Below are positions 2,281 through 21,018 of a stretch of 32,535 nt of DNA, in pieces. Source of the stretch: Bacillota bacterium. GTDB lineage: Bacteria; Bacillota; Dethiobacteria; DTU022; UBA8154. The stretch covers positions 1 through 32,535 of the forward strand of contig JAAYRR010000055.1 in the NCBI GenBank assembly GCA_012518675.1, written 5' to 3'. The notes under the pieces were generated by a model that was given only the letters and a program-made list of their open reading frames with translations, was not told where the DNA came from and ran no database searches. Position 1 is the stretch's first letter. Each line of letters opens with the position of its first letter. Both the position numbers and the translations under genes were made by a program.

Positions 2281-3291
2281 TTACTGTTCATGCTCATCTG
2301 CAACGCCTGTGGCAACACTTTCATTCCAAGTTGCAAGCAGGGTAGAAACAGATACTGGTTGCAAACCGCGTGCCTGTAATCCTTGGATGATTTCCGGCAG
2401 AGCTGTGAGTGTATTCCGGTACCCCTCATGCAGGAGGATAATGGAACCCGGCTGGACCTGTTCCATAACCTTTTTGACAATTTTTTCGGGGGGTGGTTCT
2501 TCCCAGTCGCGGGGATCAACGTCCCAATAAACCAACTTTTGTTGCAAGTCCTTTGCTGCAGCAAGTATGTCTGCAGAGCCACGCCCGTACGGGGGGCGCA
2601 TGAAGACAATTTCTTGTCCTCCTGCTTCATAAATGTGCGCTGTTGTTTTCTGTAAGTCGGCGGCAACTTGTTTCGGTGTAAGCTTATCCAAACGATCATG
2701 TTGCCAGGAATGGCCTCCCAGTTCGCTGCCCTGCGCAACAATCTTTTCCAATATTTCGGGATAAAGAACAGCCTGCCGCCCCACGACAAAAAATGTAGCC
2801 TGCAGCCCATAGGCTTGCAACACTGCCAAGTATTGTTCAGTCATTTGGGGACAGGGACCATCGTCAAAAGTAAGGGCCACCTTATCTGGGACATTAAGCC
2901 TATAGAAGGCTGCCGGCGCCGCGGGCGGCAAGCTGTTTTCACCAACATTGCCTTCCCAAGGCGGTGGGTATTTTTCTTTCGGTGTTTCCTCCACGGGAAG
3001 GGCTATAGTTTCCAGGGCGCCTGCTGTTGTTGCTGCCCCCTGCTGAGGCTGGATGCCTGGGTTTGCCATCAACTGGGGCTGTGTTTGCACGGTGGGTTCA
3101 GCTTGCGGCAGATCATTTTCCGGCAGGATGTTTTGTTGTACAGGCTGGGTCAGTGTTGGCGGGGCCAGTTGGGGATGTAACTGCAAGTCTAAAAAGGCAG
3201 TGTGGGCAGGGGCAAACAGGGATAAGGGATGGAAAATAATGCAGAAAAAAACAATTGATCCTACAAAAATTTGCAGATCATGCCGTAACAT
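2281..3291 (-). CDS. Polysaccharide deacetylase family protein (NodB-like) with N-terminal signal/anchor and P/Q-rich linker
   Basis: TFDDGP, GHSWQHD, RPPYG and LLHEG motifs of the NodB homology domain. Confidence 0.92.
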   Translation of the reverse strand: MLRHDLQIFVGSIVFFCIIFHPLSLFAPAHTAFLDLQLHPQLAPPTLTQPVQQNILPENDLPQAEPTVQTQPQLMANPGIQPQQGAATTAGALETIALPVEETPKEKYPPPWEGNVGENSLPPAAPAAFYRLNVPDKVALTFDDGPCPQMTEQYLAVLQAYGLQATFFVVGRQAVLYPEILEKIVAQGSELGGHSWQHDRLDKLTPKQVAADLQKTTAHIYEAGGQEIVFMRPPYGRGSADILAAAKDLQQKLVYWDVDPRDWEEPPPEKIVKKVMEQVQPGSIILLHEGYRNTLTALPEIIQGLQARGLQPVSVSTLLATWNESVATGVADEHEQ

Positions 3292-3634: not shown

Positions 3635-4369
3635 CTAGCATTGCAGTTCCTCCAAGATCGTTTTGGTTCTACTGGTACCGATTCTATCGGCCCCGGCTTG
3701 AACCATTTGTAACAGATTCTTGAGGGTGGCAATGCCACCGGCAGCTTTTACGCCGCAACGGTTGCCAACGGTTTTGCGCATCAGTTGGACATCGGCAACA
3801 GTAGCCCCGCCCGGGCCAAAACCGGTCGATGTTTTAACATATTTTGCCCCCGCGGCTAAAGCTATTTGACAGGCGGCGGTTATTTCTGCAGGAGTCAGGT
3901 AGCCAGTTTCTAAAATGACCTTAAGCGGTGCGGGGGTGGCTTCAACTACAGTTTGGATATCTGCCTGCAGCGCCTGGAAACGCTTGGATTTTAAATAACC
4001 CAGATGCAAAACCATGTCCAGCTCGGTGGCGCCATTCTTAAAGGCTTCTACAGCCTCCAAGGCTTTTAAACATGTAGTCTGCCTGCCTAAGGGAAACCCC
4101 ACTACAGCGCAGACGCCGGTTTTGCTGCCCGCCAGCACGCGGCAGGCTGCGGCCACATCGACGACATGGACACAGGCAGTATAGCATCCTGCCTGCCGGG
4201 CCAGGGTGAGGCCATTGTGGAGCTGTTGATCGGTGAGGTCTGGGGCCAGAAGAGCATGATCAATCAAGCGGGCCGCTTTCATTTTATCTAACAAATTTGT
4301 TGCCTGGTACAAAAGGCTGTTTGCAAGACGGTCCAAACCGGTTGGTAAAAACTGCATATTGTAAGGCAT
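3635..4369 (-). CDS. deoC: Deoxyribose-phosphate aldolase (start may be internal at 4282, MKAARLIDHALL)
   Basis: IDHALLAPD, VCAVVGFPLG, ELDMVLHLG, KVILETG, KYVKTSTGFGPGGATVADV and VKAAGGI motifs. Confidence 0.92.
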   Translation of the reverse strand: MPYNMQFLPTGLDRLANSLLYQATNLLDKMKAARLIDHALLAPDLTDQQLHNGLTLARQAGCYTACVHVVDVAAACRVLAGSKTGVCAVVGFPLGRQTTCLKALEAVEAFKNGATELDMVLHLGYLKSKRFQALQADIQTVVEATPAPLKVILETGYLTPAEITAACQIALAAGAKYVKTSTGFGPGGATVADVQLMRKTVGNRCGVKAAGGIATLKNLLQMVQAGADRIGTSRTKTILEELQC

Positions 4370-12926: not shown

Positions 12927-14072
12927 TTAGCTTTTGGGCAGGATTTTGCGTATGGCAGGATATCCGGCAAAAGAAAGGGCGTTGTAAACAAACAGTATTT
13001 CGTTTAACCCATATTGCTTAACATAGCCCTGCAGGGATGTGTTGAAGTGGCGCAGATCGATGACATGCATTTCATCATAATGGTTGGCGAAAAAAGGGAG
13101 CAGGCAGTTGGCATAAGAATCCTTGACCACGAGCAGCCTGCGGCCGGTTTGGTTTTGTACATTAATTCTGACTAGGGCATGGTTGCCGTCCAAAAAAACT
13201 GCATATTTGTCTTTTTGTAATAAATGTTCTTTGGCATACAGGCTTTGGTCTGTCTTTTTTTCATTCACGTACTCAACCCGGCAAGAAAAATTTCTCTTTG
13301 GTTTAAAAAGCTGGACAACATCAGGCAGTATAAAGCGATGGCCGCTTTTTGCATGCAGTGTGCCATAAAAATCGCTGCTAACCTGTTCGATGGTAAAATC
13401 ATTTATATCCAAAGGTTTATAATCTAAAAGGGGCCCTGCTTCCCGGTAGGCATAATATGCCCCCCGGGTTGTCCAGTGGTGGTCTGTTTTATAATAAATG
13501 TATTCCTGCCGGTGCGCGGCTAAGGCAGGGCCGGTATCAATAAATTTAATTTTGGGTGAAAGCAGTTTCTTGGTTGAAATATACTGATCATTTACGGGGT
13601 GGGGTGCTACAAAATGCGGCAGTTTGTCGGCTAAAACCTGAACAGAAGATGGCGCTAAAAGGAAATAAACCTTGGCGGGGATGTTTGCTGCAAAGCGGTT
13701 GACAGCATCAATGTTTTCTGCCAACAGGGCTGCATCAAGCTTCCCCGGTTTCTGCAGCAGGTAACCTTCCCGGCCGAAGTAGACGCCATTATTATCTTTT
13801 TTTTGTAAAATTAGTTCAGCAGCAGATTTAAGGCTGACCCACATATCCCGGTAGGCAAATTGATCGGCAACATAATTTTCAACAGCCGAACCGAATTTGC
13901 CAGAGATTAGATTGTCCCACGAAAAGGCCGGTTTTTTTTGCAGCATACGATTTTCTGTTTCTGAAAAAGCCTGGTCAGGCAACAATATAAACAGCAATGC
14001 AAAACTGGTTAAAAAGACTATTAATATGACTGTTAAAATTTTGTTGAAAAGATGCAAGCGATCATCCCCCAT
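12927..14072 (-). CDS. DHHW/AlgJ-AlgX-like SGNH-type acetyltransferase partner
   Basis: YYKTDHHWTTRGAYYAYREA, FLLAPSSVQV, LLVVKDSYANCLLPF; N-terminal TM. Confidence 0.85.
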   Translation of the reverse strand: MGDDRLHLFNKILTVILIVFLTSFALLFILLPDQAFSETENRMLQKKPAFSWDNLISGKFGSAVENYVADQFAYRDMWVSLKSAAELILQKKDNNGVYFGREGYLLQKPGKLDAALLAENIDAVNRFAANIPAKVYFLLAPSSVQVLADKLPHFVAPHPVNDQYISTKKLLSPKIKFIDTGPALAAHRQEYIYYKTDHHWTTRGAYYAYREAGPLLDYKPLDINDFTIEQVSSDFYGTLHAKSGHRFILPDVVQLFKPKRNFSCRVEYVNEKKTDQSLYAKEHLLQKDKYAVFLDGNHALVRINVQNQTGRRLLVVKDSYANCLLPFFANHYDEMHVIDLRHFNTSLQGYVKQYGLNEILFVYNALSFAGYPAIRKILPKS

Positions 14073-14086
14073 TTATTGGGCCCTTT

Positions 14087-15493
14087 TTAAAAACGAAAAT
14101 ATAAAAACGGGTTATAGGTTGTGTCAACTAAATATGCAGTGGAGAAAATCAGGATCAACAGGCAGGCTAGCACAGCCGCTAGCTTGTAGCATGTTGCAGA
14201 TTTTTTAAGTAATTTTTGGTGAAGGTTTTTAATATAGGGTACAGAGGCCCATATAGAGATGAAAATTAACGCAGCCTGGGTATAAAAATAGTAAAGCGTC
14301 TGCCTATCAAAAAAACCACTGTTATTTATGCCGAGCAGGGCCTGTATAAATTGAAAACCGGCAGGTAAATGATCAAAAGCAAATAGCACCCAGCCGAAAA
14401 GTATCAGCAAAATGGTATAAAAATGACGGACGAAACGGGGTGCCCCGTGCAGCCATTTTAAAAGGAAGGCTTTTTCCAGGGCCAAAATAAAGCCGTAGTA
14501 GAGCCCCCAACAGACAAAATTCCAGCTGGCCCCGTGCCATAGCCCGGTTAAAAACCAGACGATGAACAGGTTTCTGTAAAGCAGCGCCTTGCCGGAGCGG
14601 TTTCCCCCTAAGGGAATGTAAACATATTCCCGGAACCAGGTTCCAAGGGAGATATGCCAGCGCCGCCAGAATTCAGTAATATTTTGGGAGATATAGGGAT
14701 AATTGAAGTTTTCCGGGAATGTAAAGCCAAACATCTGACCCAAACCGACGGCCATATCAGAATAACCGCTAAAATCAAGATAGATCTGTAAAGCGAAGGC
14801 GATAATTCCCAACCAAGCTGTGCAGGTAGTCAGTTCAAGGGGGGGAATATGTTGAATTTGTGACCATAAAAGACCGATGTTGTTTGCAAGCAGTACCTTT
14901 TTGCCCAACCCGGCTACAAAACGCCATACGCCGGTTCCAAAACTGGCAAACCCCTCCTTTCTTTGTACCAACTGTGCAGAAATTGTTTGGTACCTTATAA
15001 TGGGGCCGGCGATCAGTTGCGGGAATAGCGCAATATAAGTGCCGAAGGCCATGAAGTTTCGTTGGGCAGTTGCCTTGCCGCGGTAAACATCAACGATGTA
15101 AGACAGGGCCTGGAAGGTGTAAAAGGAGATACCGATCGGCAGCGGCAGGTCTAGGCCTGTGAAAGAGGTACCCTGCAGGTTATTGACAATTTGTAAAATA
15201 AAGTCATAATATTTAAAAAAACCCAAAAGCCCGGCGTTAATGACAACGACAAAAAAAAGGGCCGGCCGGGTAATTTTTTTATTGTTGCGGTGGCCTTCAA
15301 TTAGCAGCCCAAACGCAAAGTTAATAACAATGGAAAAAAACATTAAAAAAATATAGAGGGGTTCCCCCCAGGCATAGAATATTAAACTGCCAATAAACAA
15401 GATAAAATTTCTCAGGCGGTACGGAACCAAAAAGTAAATTAAAAGGATCAGGGGCAGAAAAACAAAAAGAAAAAACAAGCTGCTAAAGACCAT
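14087..15493 (-). CDS. MBOAT family O-acyltransferase (AlgI/DltB-like)
   Basis: NYPYISQNITEFWRRWHISLGTWFREYVYIPLGGNR and FLTGLWHGASWNFVCWGLYYG motifs; polytopic. Confidence 0.95.
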   Translation of the reverse strand: MVFSSLFFLFVFLPLILLIYFLVPYRLRNFILFIGSLIFYAWGEPLYIFLMFFSIVINFAFGLLIEGHRNNKKITRPALFFVVVINAGLLGFFKYYDFILQIVNNLQGTSFTGLDLPLPIGISFYTFQALSYIVDVYRGKATAQRNFMAFGTYIALFPQLIAGPIIRYQTISAQLVQRKEGFASFGTGVWRFVAGLGKKVLLANNIGLLWSQIQHIPPLELTTCTAWLGIIAFALQIYLDFSGYSDMAVGLGQMFGFTFPENFNYPYISQNITEFWRRWHISLGTWFREYVYIPLGGNRSGKALLYRNLFIVWFLTGLWHGASWNFVCWGLYYGFILALEKAFLLKWLHGAPRFVRHFYTILLILFGWVLFAFDHLPAGFQFIQALLGINNSGFFDRQTLYYFYTQAALIFISIWASVPYIKNLHQKLLKKSATCYKLAAVLACLLILIFSTAYLVDTTYNPFLYFRF

Positions 15494-15520: not shown

Positions 15521-16045
15521 TTATTTTAAGAATGTATCCCAGACCTTTTTTACATCTTCGTTATGATTCGAAACGCAGACGATCACATATTTACCTTTAA
15601 CTGCAATAAAGGGGTCTTTTAACTTGGGCAGTTCTGCCGGCAGGTAATCTTCAAAACCAGTTATTTGGTTTGCAAGGCGTTCCCGGGCAGCCGTTTCAAT
15701 TTCCTGTGCGGCCTCATTATCAACAGCTTCAAAAACAGCGATCTCCTCCGCAGTGGCGCCGGTACTGACATACACCTGCTGTTGTACCACATTAGCTGTG
15801 GGTATTTGGTAGATGGCAGCGATCATTTCTGCACTGATTGCCGTCAGGGTGTCTTGGAAGGCAATTGTTTCCCGCAGTGTATCGGCACATTCTTCGACGT
15901 TTAAGGTTAAGTCTTCACCGGCAGGCCGGGTGCTGCAGCCTGGCAGTACTGTGACGGTTGTAAAAAATATCAACAACAGCATCAGCAGGGGTAAGCGCAG
16001 TAAGCGCTGCGTGTTTTCCGGGAAGGATCGCTCCCGTCTGTTCAT
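15521..16045 (-). CDS. DUF4358-like lipoprotein
   Basis: Lipobox LPGC; size, position next to MBOAT/DHHW genes, and C-terminal YVIVCVSNHNEDVKKVWDTF fit DUF4358 proteins; family call made from memory. Confidence 0.6.
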   Translation of the reverse strand: MNRRERSFPENTQRLLRLPLLMLLLIFFTTVTVLPGCSTRPAGEDLTLNVEECADTLRETIAFQDTLTAISAEMIAAIYQIPTANVVQQQVYVSTGATAEEIAVFEAVDNEAAQEIETAARERLANQITGFEDYLPAELPKLKDPFIAVKGKYVIVCVSNHNEDVKKVWDTFLK

Positions 16046-16071: not shown

Positions 16072-17151
16072 TTAGGGCAAGATATAGTGTTGCCTAAGAT
16101 AACCCAACCAAAGATCGCAATAAGCTTTCTGCAGGTGAATTCCATCAGTGGTTGCTTCACCGGCCAGATTTCCTTCCGGATCGGCAACACATTGCGCAAC
16201 GTCCAGGTAATAAAGTTCTTTTTCTGCAGCCATCTGTTGAATCAACCCATTATACTTTTCTATGTTGATGTTGTTATAAATTGCATCGTTTTTGGATCGC
16301 TCTTCGGAAACGGGGAGCAGGGATTGGACGTAGATTTGGGCCTGGGGCGCAATGTTTTTGATTTCATCAATGGCTTCACCATATCTTTTAATAAACAGAT
16401 CACTGTAAGCCCAGCCCAGTTCGTTGATGCCCAGCATGATATAGACCTTCCGGAACGGTGTTTGGGTTAACGCTTCGATAATAGTCATTTTTTTGCCACT
16501 GTTATTTACAATAAATTCCTTGGTCAGGATTGTATCCACCTTCAAACCTTTGGCGGTATAATACGTTGCCTCTTCCGGGCCGCTAAAGATTTTAAAACCT
16601 TCTGTACGGGAATCACCGATAAAAACAGCATCTTTAAAGTAATCGTCAGGCACGGCAGCACCTGCTGCCGGCACAGGTTTGTGATAATCGTACCCGTTTT
16701 TTTCAGGATCCCGGGGGGGTGTGACTGGAACTTGATCTCCGGGGCCGGGGGCATTGTATTCCCCTTTCCCTGCGGGCTGCGCGTGGGGCGGTGGGGTCGT
16801 GGTTTGTGCCCGTTCCCCAGGGTTACCGGCTTCATATACCCCTTTTTCAGGGGGCTGCGTGGCAGGCGGGGGTTTTACAGATACAGGGGGGGCAGGCCTG
16901 CCTGCATCTGTAGCTGATGAAGGTGCGCCGGTTTGTTCTGCAGGTGGGTAGGCCGCCTGGTTTACCGGGGGAAGGTTGTTCCCCGGGGGAACATTAACAC
17001 CGGCGTTGTGGGTATAACCGGGACGCAAAATGGTAATAAGGGCGATTATAAGAAAAAACAGGGCAACCAGTTGGGAAAAATGGGATCGCCGCAAGAAACG
17101 TTGTAACCTGTTTTTTGGTTTTAACTGTATTCTGTAATCTTTGTTTGCCAT
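16072..17151 (-). CDS. Membrane-anchored SGNH/GDSL hydrolase with proline-rich repeat linker
   Basis: FIGDSRTEGFK (block I), IMLGINELGW (block III), TTDGIHLQ (block V); N-terminal TM followed by a P-rich segment. Confidence 0.87.
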   Translation of the reverse strand: MANKDYRIQLKPKNRLQRFLRRSHFSQLVALFFLIIALITILRPGYTHNAGVNVPPGNNLPPVNQAAYPPAEQTGAPSSATDAGRPAPPVSVKPPPATQPPEKGVYEAGNPGERAQTTTPPPHAQPAGKGEYNAPGPGDQVPVTPPRDPEKNGYDYHKPVPAAGAAVPDDYFKDAVFIGDSRTEGFKIFSGPEEATYYTAKGLKVDTILTKEFIVNNSGKKMTIIEALTQTPFRKVYIMLGINELGWAYSDLFIKRYGEAIDEIKNIAPQAQIYVQSLLPVSEERSKNDAIYNNINIEKYNGLIQQMAAEKELYYLDVAQCVADPEGNLAGEATTDGIHLQKAYCDLWLGYLRQHYILP

Positions 17152-17221: not shown

Positions 17222-17227
17222 ATTATA
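17222..17227 (-). promoter_or_regulatory. Putative -10 (TATAAT) of the O-acetylation operon
   Basis: TATAAT on the minus strand, 71 nt upstream of the SGNH start; no recognisable -35, consistent with activator dependence. Confidence 0.5.
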
Positions 17228-17248
17228 ACCGCTTTATTTCGACAATTA

Positions 17249-17287
17249 TTTACAAGGTTATTAAAGATTGGTTACAAAAAAGTTACA
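17249..17287 (-). promoter_or_regulatory. Four-half-site WalR/PhoP-type response regulator box array
   Basis: Minus strand reads TGTAAC-TTTTT-TGTAAC-CAATC-TTTAAT-AACCT-TGTAAA: four hexamers with exact N5 spacing (11-nt period). Confidence 0.65.
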
Positions 17288-17373
17288 GTTGTCAAATTTG
17301 GGTTCTTTTTGGGGAAACATTGTTGTATTTATAGTACAATAGCAATGATCAACAGTCCAGAGGTGATTATTTC

Positions 17374-18090
17374 ATGCCGGCAAATAAAACGAAGGTCCTG
17401 GTAGTTGAGGACGAAGCCTCCATCCGTAAATTTATTGCCATTAACCTACATAGAAATGATTTTGTGGTTTTAGAGGCGGGTGACGGGGAAACCGCCCTTG
17501 AAATGGCCCGAAGGTATTCACCCGGTGTAATAGTACTGGATGTGATGCTGCCTGCGATGGACGGTTTTGAGGTGTGCATGCAAATAAGGCGCATGCTGCC
17601 CCAGGTTATTATTATTATGCTTACAGCCCGGGGAGAGGATATGGACAAAATTATGGGGTTGGAGCTCGGTGCTGATGATTACATGGTCAAACCCTTTAAT
17701 CCCCTGGAATTGGTGGCACGCATCCGTGCCAACCTGCGAAAAATGGCCAGCTGTGTGCCTGTAAAAACAAATTGTATCAGCTTTCAACAGCTGAGGCTGG
17801 ATTTAGAAGGGCAGCGTTTCTATAAAGATGAAGAAGAAATAGAATTAACACCGACAGAATTTGCCATGATGAAAGTTTTTATGAGCAATCCCCGGAAAGC
17901 GTTCAGCCGGAACGAAATTATGAACTGTGTTTGGGGCCAGAATTATTTTGGGGATCTGAAAACAGTAGATGTAAATATCCGCAGGATACGGGAAAAACTG
18001 GAGGAAGATCCCTCTGCCCCCCAATGGATTGAAACAGTCTGGGGAGTTGGTTACCGCTTAAAGGGGGCGGCAGGACATGCCCAGTATTAG
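17374..18090 (+). CDS. OmpR/PhoB-family response regulator
   Basis: VLVVEDE, VIVLDVMLPAMDGFEV, LTARGEDMDKIMGLELGADDYMVKPFNPLEL; C-terminal winged helix RRIREKLEEDPSAPQWIETVWGVGYRLKG. Confidence 0.96.
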   Translation: MPANKTKVLVVEDEASIRKFIAINLHRNDFVVLEAGDGETALEMARRYSPGVIVLDVMLPAMDGFEVCMQIRRMLPQVIIIMLTARGEDMDKIMGLELGADDYMVKPFNPLELVARIRANLRKMASCVPVKTNCISFQQLRLDLEGQRFYKDEEEIELTPTEFAMMKVFMSNPRKAFSRNEIMNCVWGQNYFGDLKTVDVNIRRIREKLEEDPSAPQWIETVWGVGYRLKGAAGHAQY

Positions 18091-19474
18091 AAGCAGGCTG
18101 GTAATGAGTTTTTTGTTTATTATCGTGTTTACAGTGTTTATCCTGGAAGTATTTTTAATTAGTAATATCCGCAATAATTACTATAAAAATTTGGAGGACA
18201 CCCTGGTAAACCAGTTGCAAACATCTGCAGATTTGTATGACAGATATTTTTCAGATGCAACTTTACACGAAAATGTACTTAATAATGTGGATACGTTTTG
18301 GAAACAGGTGACGGCCCAAGTAGAAATTATTGATATGGAAGGGGAAATGATCCTGGACTCTTTAGGTGTTGCCGACAGTTCTGTTACGGAAATGGATGAT
18401 GTCCAAGCAGCACTGCAAGGCCAAAAGGGTATCTGGAGCGGGCGTGTTCCCTACGATACGGAAAAGGTGATGGCTGCAGCCTACCCCCTTAGGGCAGCAA
18501 AAAAACAGGTGGGGGTTTTACGGTTTGTGGCTTCTTTAAGGGAAATAAACCAAGAAATTAGGGATGTTGCCCGCCGCTATATGTGTTTTGGGGGTATGGT
18601 AATCCTCTTTTCAGGGTTAATCAGTATAGTTTTAGCCAACACAATTACAGGGCCTTTAAAGCAAGTTACCATGGCAGCCAAGGAGATGGCTACGGGAAAT
18701 TTTAAGGTGGAATGCACCCCCGGGTCAAGGGATGAAATCGGCAAACTTTCGGTAGCGTTAAATTTTCTGGCCAGTGAAATTTTGGAAAAGGAAAGGCTGA
18801 AAAATGATTTCATTTCATCTGTTTCCCACGAGTTGCGCACACCGTTGACTTCAATAAAAGGCTGGGCCGTGACGCTTAAACAGGGCTATGAAAATAATGC
18901 ACTTTTACAGGATGGGCTGGAAATTATTGAAAAGGAAAGTGATCGATTAACCGGTATGGTCGCAGAACTTTTGGATTTTTCCAGGTTTGCAGCCGGTAAA
19001 ATTATGTTAAAAGAAGAAAAAGTTAATATGGCCGGCCTCCTGGAACATTTGCGGATGCAGCTAACTCCCAGGGCTATGCGGGAGGAAATAAATTTTCAGG
19101 TGAGGTATGATGAAAACAAGCAGTATGTTTTTACAGATGCTGATCGCTTAAAGCAGGTGTTTATCAACCTGTTGGACAATGCTTTCAAATTTACTGCTCC
19201 CGGCGGGAAGGTTTGCTTGACAGCTGTCTCTGATGAGCAACAGTACTACTTTTATATTGAAGACAGCGGATGCGGCATCCCCGCAGAAGAGCTGCCCAAG
19301 GTAAAGGAAAAGTTTTATAAAGGGAAATCAAGCCAGGCGCAAAGCGGCCTCGGTCTTTCTATATCTGATGAAATAATCAACCTGATGGGAGGAAAGTTGG
19401 TGATCAAAAGTAAAGTTGGCCATGGTACATGCATTACAATTACCCTACCCTTAAAAGAGGTGGGTGAAAAATGA
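18077..19474 (+). CDS. Sensor histidine kinase (TM-HAMP-HisKA-HATPase)
   Basis: SVSHELRTPLTSIKGW, VFINLLDNAFKFT, DSGCGIP, GLGLSIS; overlaps the response regulator by 14 nt. Confidence 0.96.
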   Translation: MPSIRSRLVMSFLFIIVFTVFILEVFLISNIRNNYYKNLEDTLVNQLQTSADLYDRYFSDATLHENVLNNVDTFWKQVTAQVEIIDMEGEMILDSLGVADSSVTEMDDVQAALQGQKGIWSGRVPYDTEKVMAAAYPLRAAKKQVGVLRFVASLREINQEIRDVARRYMCFGGMVILFSGLISIVLANTITGPLKQVTMAAKEMATGNFKVECTPGSRDEIGKLSVALNFLASEILEKERLKNDFISSVSHELRTPLTSIKGWAVTLKQGYENNALLQDGLEIIEKESDRLTGMVAELLDFSRFAAGKIMLKEEKVNMAGLLEHLRMQLTPRAMREEINFQVRYDENKQYVFTDADRLKQVFINLLDNAFKFTAPGGKVCLTAVSDEQQYYFYIEDSGCGIPAEELPKVKEKFYKGKSSQAQSGLGLSISDEIINLMGGKLVIKSKVGHGTCITITLPLKEVGEK

Positions 19475-21018
19475 AAAAACTGTTTCTGCCGGTTGTTTTC
19501 CTGGTGCTTATTGCTGTCCTGGCCGGCGGTTGTGTTGATCAAAACACTAACTTTACGTTGGCAGTCGTTCCCCCGCAAAATTTGCAGCCTCCCTTACAAG
19601 GCACATGGGAAATCGTCTCCCTTTTGCAGGAAAATACAGCTGTCCGAGGTGTAAAACCAAAATGGGTGGGAAAAACCATTTCCTTTTCAGATAAAGGTGT
19701 GTTGTTGGGTGATTATCTTTTATGTAACCCTCTTTACCAAGTAAAAAAAGTGGCGGCAGAAACCTTTCTGTTTTACCGCCACCAGGTTTTCCCAACTGAT
19801 TTTCACTTTCAGGATCCGGAGATTGAGGTTCTTATTCTTTATGACAACCAGTTGTTTTTCTGCGAATTGCTGCCGGAAAAAAACGATGAATTATTGCTGA
19901 TTCTTTTTGACAACTGCTATCTTGTCCAAAAAATTTCTGACGAGGTGGACGAAGCTGTTTTTTCCTCTTGGGAAATCAAAAATGCAGATACGGAAAGGGA
20001 TACCGGCAGCCGGGCTGAAATTGCAAACAGGCATACCGGTGTGCTGCTCGGGTTGCGGGCACCATGCCTGCATTCGCAGGGAAATTACGGTGAAAATTAC
20101 CGCACACTTTGGCTGGTGTTGGCGGACCAAAAGCTGGCGCCTGTTTTGGAAACAAGTGCGCTATTGTTTCCAAGAAGGAGCGGTTTTTACAGGCTGCAGG
20201 TTGAAAGGAAGAAAGAAGGAGGAAGGGCGGAAGACTTTCTAATTGTTGATCATATCTTAAAGCAGGAGAAGGAGGAAAAAACGGAAAGTGCACCGGGGAG
20301 GTCCGGGGATCCCCGGGAAGGCTTTGGGGGCGGGGAGGAAGGGGAAGCCTGTCTTGTACGCAGAATCCACTACATTGGCAATGAATATGTTTCCATTGAA
20401 GAAACATTTGAACAGTCACCCGTAGAAGAGGGGAAAGCCGGCAAAGGAGGCAAACTGCATATCTATGCTATTGACAGTCTGCCCGGGACCAAAGCGGTTA
20501 AAATTTCTGATTTGGCAGGGCAGGAGGCTTTGACTGCCATGGAACTCGGCAGGCAAAGGTTACTGCAGCAGCTGGGCCTGGAACAGGAAGGTTTGGAGGA
20601 TGAAAGAAATTTTGGCCTGACCAGAAAAATGGGGTATTGGATATTTAACGGCAGGGTGAATTACTGGAAAGGTAATGAACATGAAAAAGCGGACTATGAT
20701 ATTACTGTTATCCCGCCCCATGATGTAGTCTGCTACAACAAGCTGCATCTCCCCTGGACCCGGGTGAAGAACCATATCCCGGGTGCGGTTGACGTGTTTA
20801 CTTCACCTGCAAAGAACTTGGCGCTGGTGGTCACCAGTAATGAAATCGTTATTTATAAAATGCACCAGGAAACCCTGCTTGATCCCCCTCTAGGAAAGAT
20901 CCCCCTAAACAGGGGCGAAGCTGTGATCATGGCTGAATGGGCCTTGGATCAATATGTTGAAGACTGGACCCTGACATTTAAAGCATTCAGTGATCAGGAT
21001 TTTGTTTTGTTTGAATAA
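19471..21018 (+). CDS. Uncharacterised lipoprotein co-transcribed with the two-component system
   Basis: Lipobox LAGGC; 4-nt ATGA overlap with the kinase gene; no recognised domain. Confidence 0.85.
   Translation: MKKLFLPVVFLVLIAVLAGGCVDQNTNFTLAVVPPQNLQPPLQGTWEIVSLLQENTAVRGVKPKWVGKTISFSDKGVLLGDYLLCNPLYQVKKVAAETFLFYRHQVFPTDFHFQDPEIEVLILYDNQLFFCELLPEKNDELLLILFDNCYLVQKISDEVDEAVFSSWEIKNADTERDTGSRAEIANRHTGVLLGLRAPCLHSQGNYGENYRTLWLVLADQKLAPVLETSALLFPRRSGFYRLQVERKKEGGRAEDFLIVDHILKQEKEEKTESAPGRSGDPREGFGGGEEGEACLVRRIHYIGNEYVSIEETFEQSPVEEGKAGKGGKLHIYAIDSLPGTKAVKISDLAGQEALTAMELGRQRLLQQLGLEQEGLEDERNFGLTRKMGYWIFNGRVNYWKGNEHEKADYDITVIPPHDVVCYNKLHLPWTRVKNHIPGAVDVFTSPAKNLALVVTSNEIVIYKMHQETLLDPPLGKIPLNRGEAVIMAEWALDQYVEDWTLTFKAFSDQDFVLFE

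Follow-up and report, generated by a model that had tools for sequence, protein, structure and literature searches.

A phased direct-repeat array as the probable operator of an MtrA/WalR-like response regulator beside an envelope O-acetylation operon in a Bacillota bacterium

In class II promoters of the PhoB/PhoP type, direct repeats with a period of 11 nt stand in for a missing -35 element. Several other two-component systems (TCSs) act on the cell envelope through repeated sites. For instance, the C. glutamicum regulator MtrA has the consensus (A/G)TAACAATttn(A/G)TAACAAT (PMC3353115), and in the MtrAB-LpqB system of Actinobacteria the genes for the response regulator (RR), the kinase and a lipoprotein follow one another in that order. 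WalRK (YycFG) is characterized by TGTWAH-N5-TGTWAH boxes and envelope outputs. In B. subtilis, oatA is under the control of the lysozyme receptor RsiV, and in C. difficile and E. faecalis a GlcNAc deacetylase is governed by homologs of sigmaV (PMC5014341).

The locus described here belongs to a Bacillota bacterium and lies in a window of 32,535 nt, that is, the whole stretch of DNA that was analysed (contig JAAYRR010000055.1 of assembly GCA_012518675.1, positions 1 to 32,535). A three-gene TCS operon diverges from an operon in which an MBOAT protein is accompanied by SGNH/AlgX-type partners, as seen from Pfam matches to MBOAT, DHHW/ALGX and Lipase_GDSL_2. Between the two operons, the minus strand at 17287-17249 reads TGTAAC-N5-TGTAAC-N5-TTTAAT-N5-TGTAAA, and all four boxes are spaced at an 11-nt period. 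The layout, with boxes numbered from the divergent promoter, is as follows.

12927..14072, minus strand: DHHW/AlgX-like SGNH acetyltransferase gene
14087..15493, minus strand: MBOAT O-acyltransferase gene (AlgI/DltB type)
15521..16045, minus strand: DUF4358 putative lipoprotein gene
16072..17151, minus strand: membrane-anchored SGNH (Lipase_GDSL_2) protein gene, first of the divergent operon
17222..17227, minus strand: TATAAT, -10 element of the SGNH/MBOAT operon (at spacing 21, 5.15/6 positions match on average)
17238..17244, minus strand: TGTCGAA, a separate element of the acetylation-operon promoter
17249..17254, minus strand: box 1, TGTAAA, promoter-proximal, which in the divergent promoter falls at about -39 to -34, the -35 place
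17260..17265, minus strand: box 2, TTTAAT, a degenerate half-site that varies among orthologs
17271..17276, minus strand: box 3, TGTAAC, 11 nt to box 4 in all orthologs
17282..17287, minus strand: box 4 (distal), TGTAAC, within the best-conserved 22-nt block (83.5% mean pairwise identity, 14 loci)
17335..17340, plus strand: -10 element TACAAT of the RR operon, inside the conserved TATAGTACAAT (94.9% identity), with no clear -35
17374..18090, plus strand: OmpR/PhoB-family RR gene, the presumed array binder
18077..19474, plus strand: sensor histidine kinase gene (HAMP-HisKA-HATPase, no PAS)
19471..21018, plus strand: gene for a 515-aa lipoprotein, same operon as the RR, with a predicted RsiV/DUF3298-like fold

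By operon layout and box type, the RR appears closest to MtrA-MtrB-LpqB. The gene order is the same (and is retained as far as Alkaliphilus and Clostridium), the kinase has no PAS domain in either system, envelope genes are regulated, the site is an (A/G)TAAC direct repeat with an 11-nt period (PMC3353115), and, among solved structures, MtrA (2gwr) is the closest to the RR in sequence. Nevertheless, the RR scores 224.1 bits against the NCBIfam MtrA equivalog, below its cut-off of 300, the host is a member of the Bacillota, the lipoprotein is not of the LpqB family, and the intact site is found at one locus here as against a 22-target regulon for MtrA. The NCBIfam equivalogs for PhoB (225.5 bits, cut-off 296.2) and YycF (224.1 bits, cut-off 340) are also missed, so that the RR falls 70-116 bits short of the three cut-offs. 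The array resembles the PhoB/PhoP class II arrangement in having 11-nt direct repeats in place of a missing -35, but no phosphate genes (pst/pho) adjoin it. With the walA-walR-walK operon of C. difficile, compared by description, the locus has in common a kinase without PAS and a lipoprotein gene in the operon, and pgdA is strongly WalR-responsive there; in contrast to the present lipoprotein gene, that for WalA precedes walR, and its product is a predicted beta-propeller (PMC9210968).

As for WalRK itself, the boxes and the envelope outputs are alike, but the operon lacks the YycH/YycI genes and the PAS-bearing WalK of a WalR-type operon, its third gene encoding a lipoprotein and its kinase being devoid of PAS. 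A separate, canonical WalRK-YycH-YycI operon is present elsewhere in the genome, on contig C55, where the RR scores 335.5 bits on YycF (just under the cut-off of 340) and YycH/YycI adjoin. Thus, the window RR is not WalR. Its recognition helix, TVDVNIRRIREKLE, is nearly the same as TVDVTVRRLREKIE, the helix of the WalR encoded in this genome, which would account for the WalR-like boxes and means that WalR, too, might bind them. The original prediction had called the boxes WalR/PhoP-type; this stands for the direct-repeat type of site, but the separate WalRK and the missed cut-offs indicate a regulator other than WalR or PhoP. The regulator is best described as MtrA/WalR-like but not WalR, and as probably dedicated to the acetylation operon.

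When compared with four consecutive TGTWAH hexamers, the array matches at 23 of 24 positions, with three of the four boxes exact, and the best of 4000 intergenic dinucleotide shuffles reaches 21. A self-similarity test that uses no motif gives P = 0.00025, and the best period among 7-23 is 11. In the organism's own genome (1.93 Mb), a single further place, C111:28207-28245, is as good a match to three phased boxes; genome-wide statements of this kind rest on pattern searches. Shuffles and genome uniqueness together rule out a chance origin.

Orthologs of the RR were looked for in the family, the class, the phylum and a GTDB collection. The ortholog set consists of 14 loci with at least 63% identity and usable upstream DNA (the window, L003, L010-L019, L023 and L179); several loci with G handles are the same genomes as loci with L handles and were counted once. 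The array was found in all 14; 11 of these loci have a divergent SGNH gene, and L018, L019 and L023 do not. Over the 14 loci, mean pairwise identity reaches 83.5% in the block of boxes 3 and 4 and 88.2% around box 1. It falls to 52% in the spacer before the divergent -10, to 35% in the stretch that separates the array from the RR -10, and to 30% in the leader. Since the blocks are conserved and their flanks are not, a footprint rather than general conservation is indicated. The distance between boxes 3 and 4 is always 11 nt, that between boxes 1 and 3 is 21 or 22 nt, and box 2 is weakly conserved. The four phased hexamers of the original prediction are exact in sequence and coordinates and well beyond chance, and their phase is conserved in relatives that keep both operons, the point on which that prediction could have failed; the 11-nt phase holds for the whole array in the window and is strict among relatives for boxes 3 and 4 only.

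The geometry of the divergent promoter is fixed. The divergent -10 follows box 1 at a spacing of exactly 21 nt in 14 of 14 loci: at this spacing the mean match to TATAAT is 5.15/6 (13 loci), other spacings from 0 to 59 reach at most about 3.4 (next best 3.38), and the fourteenth locus, L179, likewise has a spacing of 21. In the window, the best -35 match of this promoter is 3/6 at any spacer of 15-19 nt, and a good -35 is absent from both promoters in every ortholog examined. With the -35 missing and box 1 at about -39 to -34, the box would take the -35 position, as in PhoB-type activation. On the other side, box 4 is 47-49 nt (about 48) from the RR -10 in 12 of 14 loci, and the sequence in between is unconserved. 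The exceptions are L019, which is 11 nt (one helical turn) shorter, and L003, with 43 nt; from the start of box 3 to the end of the RR -10, these two departing loci measure 60 and 66 nt, respectively. These distances support autoregulation from a phase-dependent site upstream.

Some relatives can be regarded as natural experiments. In G085 (the genome of L015), SGNH-DUF4358 has stayed beside the RR and MBOAT-DHHW lies 19 kb away, where it has its own array, TGTAAC-N5-TGTAAC-N15-TGTAAA-N21-TAAAAT, and no adjoining RR gene; the array has thus moved together with the output operon. A matrix made without the G085 site gives this site a score of 60.8, and loci beyond the ortholog set score 24 or less.

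L175 4654-7216 (G085:C2): split acetylation operon, moved half with its array copy

In two Alkaliphilus species and in L019, the divergent gene encodes a polysaccharide deacetylase (PF01522), an acetyl-modifying enzyme of another kind, and the array and the 21-nt spacing are retained. By contrast, in G071 the acetylation operon is intact, another gene lies upstream and no array is found there; this is a single negative control, in which the absence of the TCS is limited to matches at E 1e-98 and to the neighbourhood of the operon. Across the class genomes, DHHW is present in 9 of 9 with the RR versus 4 of 89 others (Fisher 4.5e-10, uncorrected for phylogeny). More distant RRs, in Salibacterium (51%) and two Paenibacillus (52-54%), have two- or three-box arrays directly after the kinase gene and before the next gene, 21 nt from a TANANT -10; at this distance the matches to the boxes are weak, and a chance origin is ruled out less firmly. 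In one Paenibacillus locus (L020 7130-7750), a weak two-box site lies 21 nt from TAAAAT, and the gene that follows encodes a small FG-GAP repeat protein that matches a lysozyme-inhibitor domain (PliI) below the cut-off. At L224 2733-4538 (G066), a broken DHHW gene and remnants of the kinase and lipoprotein genes mark a copy of the system in decay.

The acetylation-operon promoter has one more recurrent element, TGTCGAA; exactly 11 nt separate the end of its TGTCGA core from the -10 downstream. The core occurs in 9 of 11 SGNH-operon promoters and is absent from the deacetylase promoters. It was considered as a fifth RR box and discarded, since G071 still has it (L220 2563-2569) although array and adjacent TCS are missing there; this makes it an element of the operon and not of this RR. 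It lies outside what a model of an RR operator accounts for.

Control by a regulator other than the adjacent RR has to be weighed. The array could be a WalR site through which the genome's canonical WalRK controls the acetylation operon. The exact TGTWAH matches in three of four boxes and the almost identical recognition helices speak for this, as does a single two-box site, TGTAAT-N5-TGTAAC, upstream of the organism's own walR. Nevertheless, the reading is unlikely: the array is always beside this RR or its split-off operon and so follows the adjacent TCS, it is absent from the operon copy that lacks such a TCS (G071), and the site upstream of walR is not built like the array (joint score -3.6). 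The latter site lies between walR and a gene for an M23/LysM/G5 peptidase (L090 5683-5699, in G000:C55); wal operons elsewhere have been reported as not autoregulated (PMC9210968).

It is very improbable that the array serves only to autoregulate the RR operon and that the match at the divergent promoter is a coincidence. Such a role would fit the length-conserved 47-49 nt to the RR -10 and the conservation of the boxes in lineages that have no O-acetylation operon, but it does not account for a divergent -10 whose distance is exactly 21 nt in all 14 loci, nor for the MBOAT-DHHW genes that have moved away, which have an array of their own and no RR gene beside it. ECF sigma factors of the sigmaX/sigmaV type have the consensus TGTAAC...CGAC/CGTC, and TGTAAC boxes with GTCG nearby might therefore be read as ECF -35 elements. 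This has been rejected as scarcely credible, given that no conserved CGTC/CGAC is found 16-17 nt from any box, that the conserved -10 (TANAAT) is of the housekeeping type and that a -35 needs no repeated, phased boxes. Finally, the RR may repress the divergent operon through the array, since activation and repression are both known for such OmpR-family regulators (PMC3353115, PMC4168254). Against this, MtrA represses from sites close to the -10 and activates from sites that lie upstream, beyond the -35 (PMC3353115), and the present array ends at the -35 place. In addition, no ortholog has a -35, so the promoter would be nearly silent without an activator, and repression there is improbable.

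Thus, the array is very likely the operator of the adjacent RR, from which the divergent O-acetylation operon would be activated in a PhoB-like manner and the RR's own operon tuned. Dimers of the phosphorylated RR would bind head-to-tail TGTAA(C/A) half-sites, with box 1 filling the place of the missing -35 and the RR contacting sigma and RNA polymerase as PhoB does. The bound RR would then turn on the SGNH-DUF4358-MBOAT-DHHW operon, with the envelope as the presumed target of O-acetylation, and the same bound RR, 48 nt upstream of the RR -10, would tune the RR-kinase-lipoprotein operon. As judged from the conserved distance, autoregulation is likely, although on the RR side the position alone would be compatible with repression as well. 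The original prediction had placed a TATAAT without a good -35 downstream of the array, which is borne out, and had read it as an activator-dependent promoter leading into the SGNH operon, which the fixed 21 nt and the lack of a -35 support. Its proposal that the adjacent RR activates this operon gains support from G085, from Alkaliphilus and L019, and from G071, and the autoregulation that it suggested is made probable by the conserved length of about 48 nt.

No broad regulon was found: outside this locus, the intact array was seen once, at the split-off part of the same operon. Relaxed genome-wide scans exceeded a reversed-pattern control by little once the array and its homologs were set aside. 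Candidate regulon sites were rejected in G004/G006, where a conserved pair lies within coding sequence, and in G082/G083, which have no TGTAAC boxes. The further array of the organism's own genome (G000:C111:28207-28256, L096 about 4208-4257) has five phased boxes, TGTAAG-N5-TGTAAC-N5-TGTAAC-N5-TGTGAC-N5-TGTTTA, and is flanked by genes for a molybdopterin oxidoreductase and a sigma54 activator. Its neighbours are unrelated and it does not fit the matrix, so it was not taken as a regulon member and probably belongs to a different regulator. The window also contains a polysaccharide deacetylase gene (2281-3291, minus strand), 14 kb from the array and with no matrix match nearby.

There is also some indication of what the lipoprotein may resemble. 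No credible Pfam family was found for it with 17 homologs searched. The mean pLDDT is 78 in an AlphaFold model of the protein; for another model, covering residues 185-445, the pLDDT is 76. For both models, the significant PDB matches are to RsiV/DUF3298 only (3cyg, RsiV-lysozyme (5jen) and two DUF3298 structures), with Foldseek probabilities of 0.99-1.00, yet TM-scores of 0.2-0.5. For the 261-aa domain, the top six PDB matches are all RsiV/DUF3298, again at 0.99-1.00 and with low TM-scores (0.3-0.4), and the sequence profile reaches RsiV/DUF3298 at E 0.028-0.26 (3cyg at E 0.028). The outputs alternate between O-acetylation and a deacetylase, as is reported for sigmaV, with B. subtilis on one side and C. 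difficile and E. faecalis on the other (PMC5014341). From this alternation and the predicted RsiV-like sensor domain, a two-component counterpart of the sigmaV-RsiV-OatA/PgdA circuit can be proposed, speculatively and as a doubtful reading: the kinase might receive, through the lipoprotein, a signal of wall damage or of lysozyme, and the dedicated RR, through essentially one operator, might switch on the lysozyme-resistance modification of its lineage. The output would be O-acetylation in the Dethiobacter relatives, deacetylation in Alkaliphilus and, in Paenibacillus, perhaps a lysozyme-inhibitor-like protein. In contrast to the sigmaV circuit and its anti-sigma factor, a TCS with a lipoprotein would act here, and the proposed signal is attractive but hypothetical; lysozyme binding is not universal in DUF3298 proteins, as Rv1980c does not bind it (PMC5014341).

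If the operator reading is right, a TCS in a little-studied group of Bacillota gains a concrete target and a promoter geometry that is exact to the base, and its link to envelope acetylation rests on three natural experiments, beyond adjacency. The paired outputs behind one operator suggest that the response is conserved, and not the enzyme. The sensing role of C. difficile WalA has been stated as open (PMC9210968); the present system, if correctly read, would offer a testable idea about what the accessory lipoprotein of three-gene systems senses.
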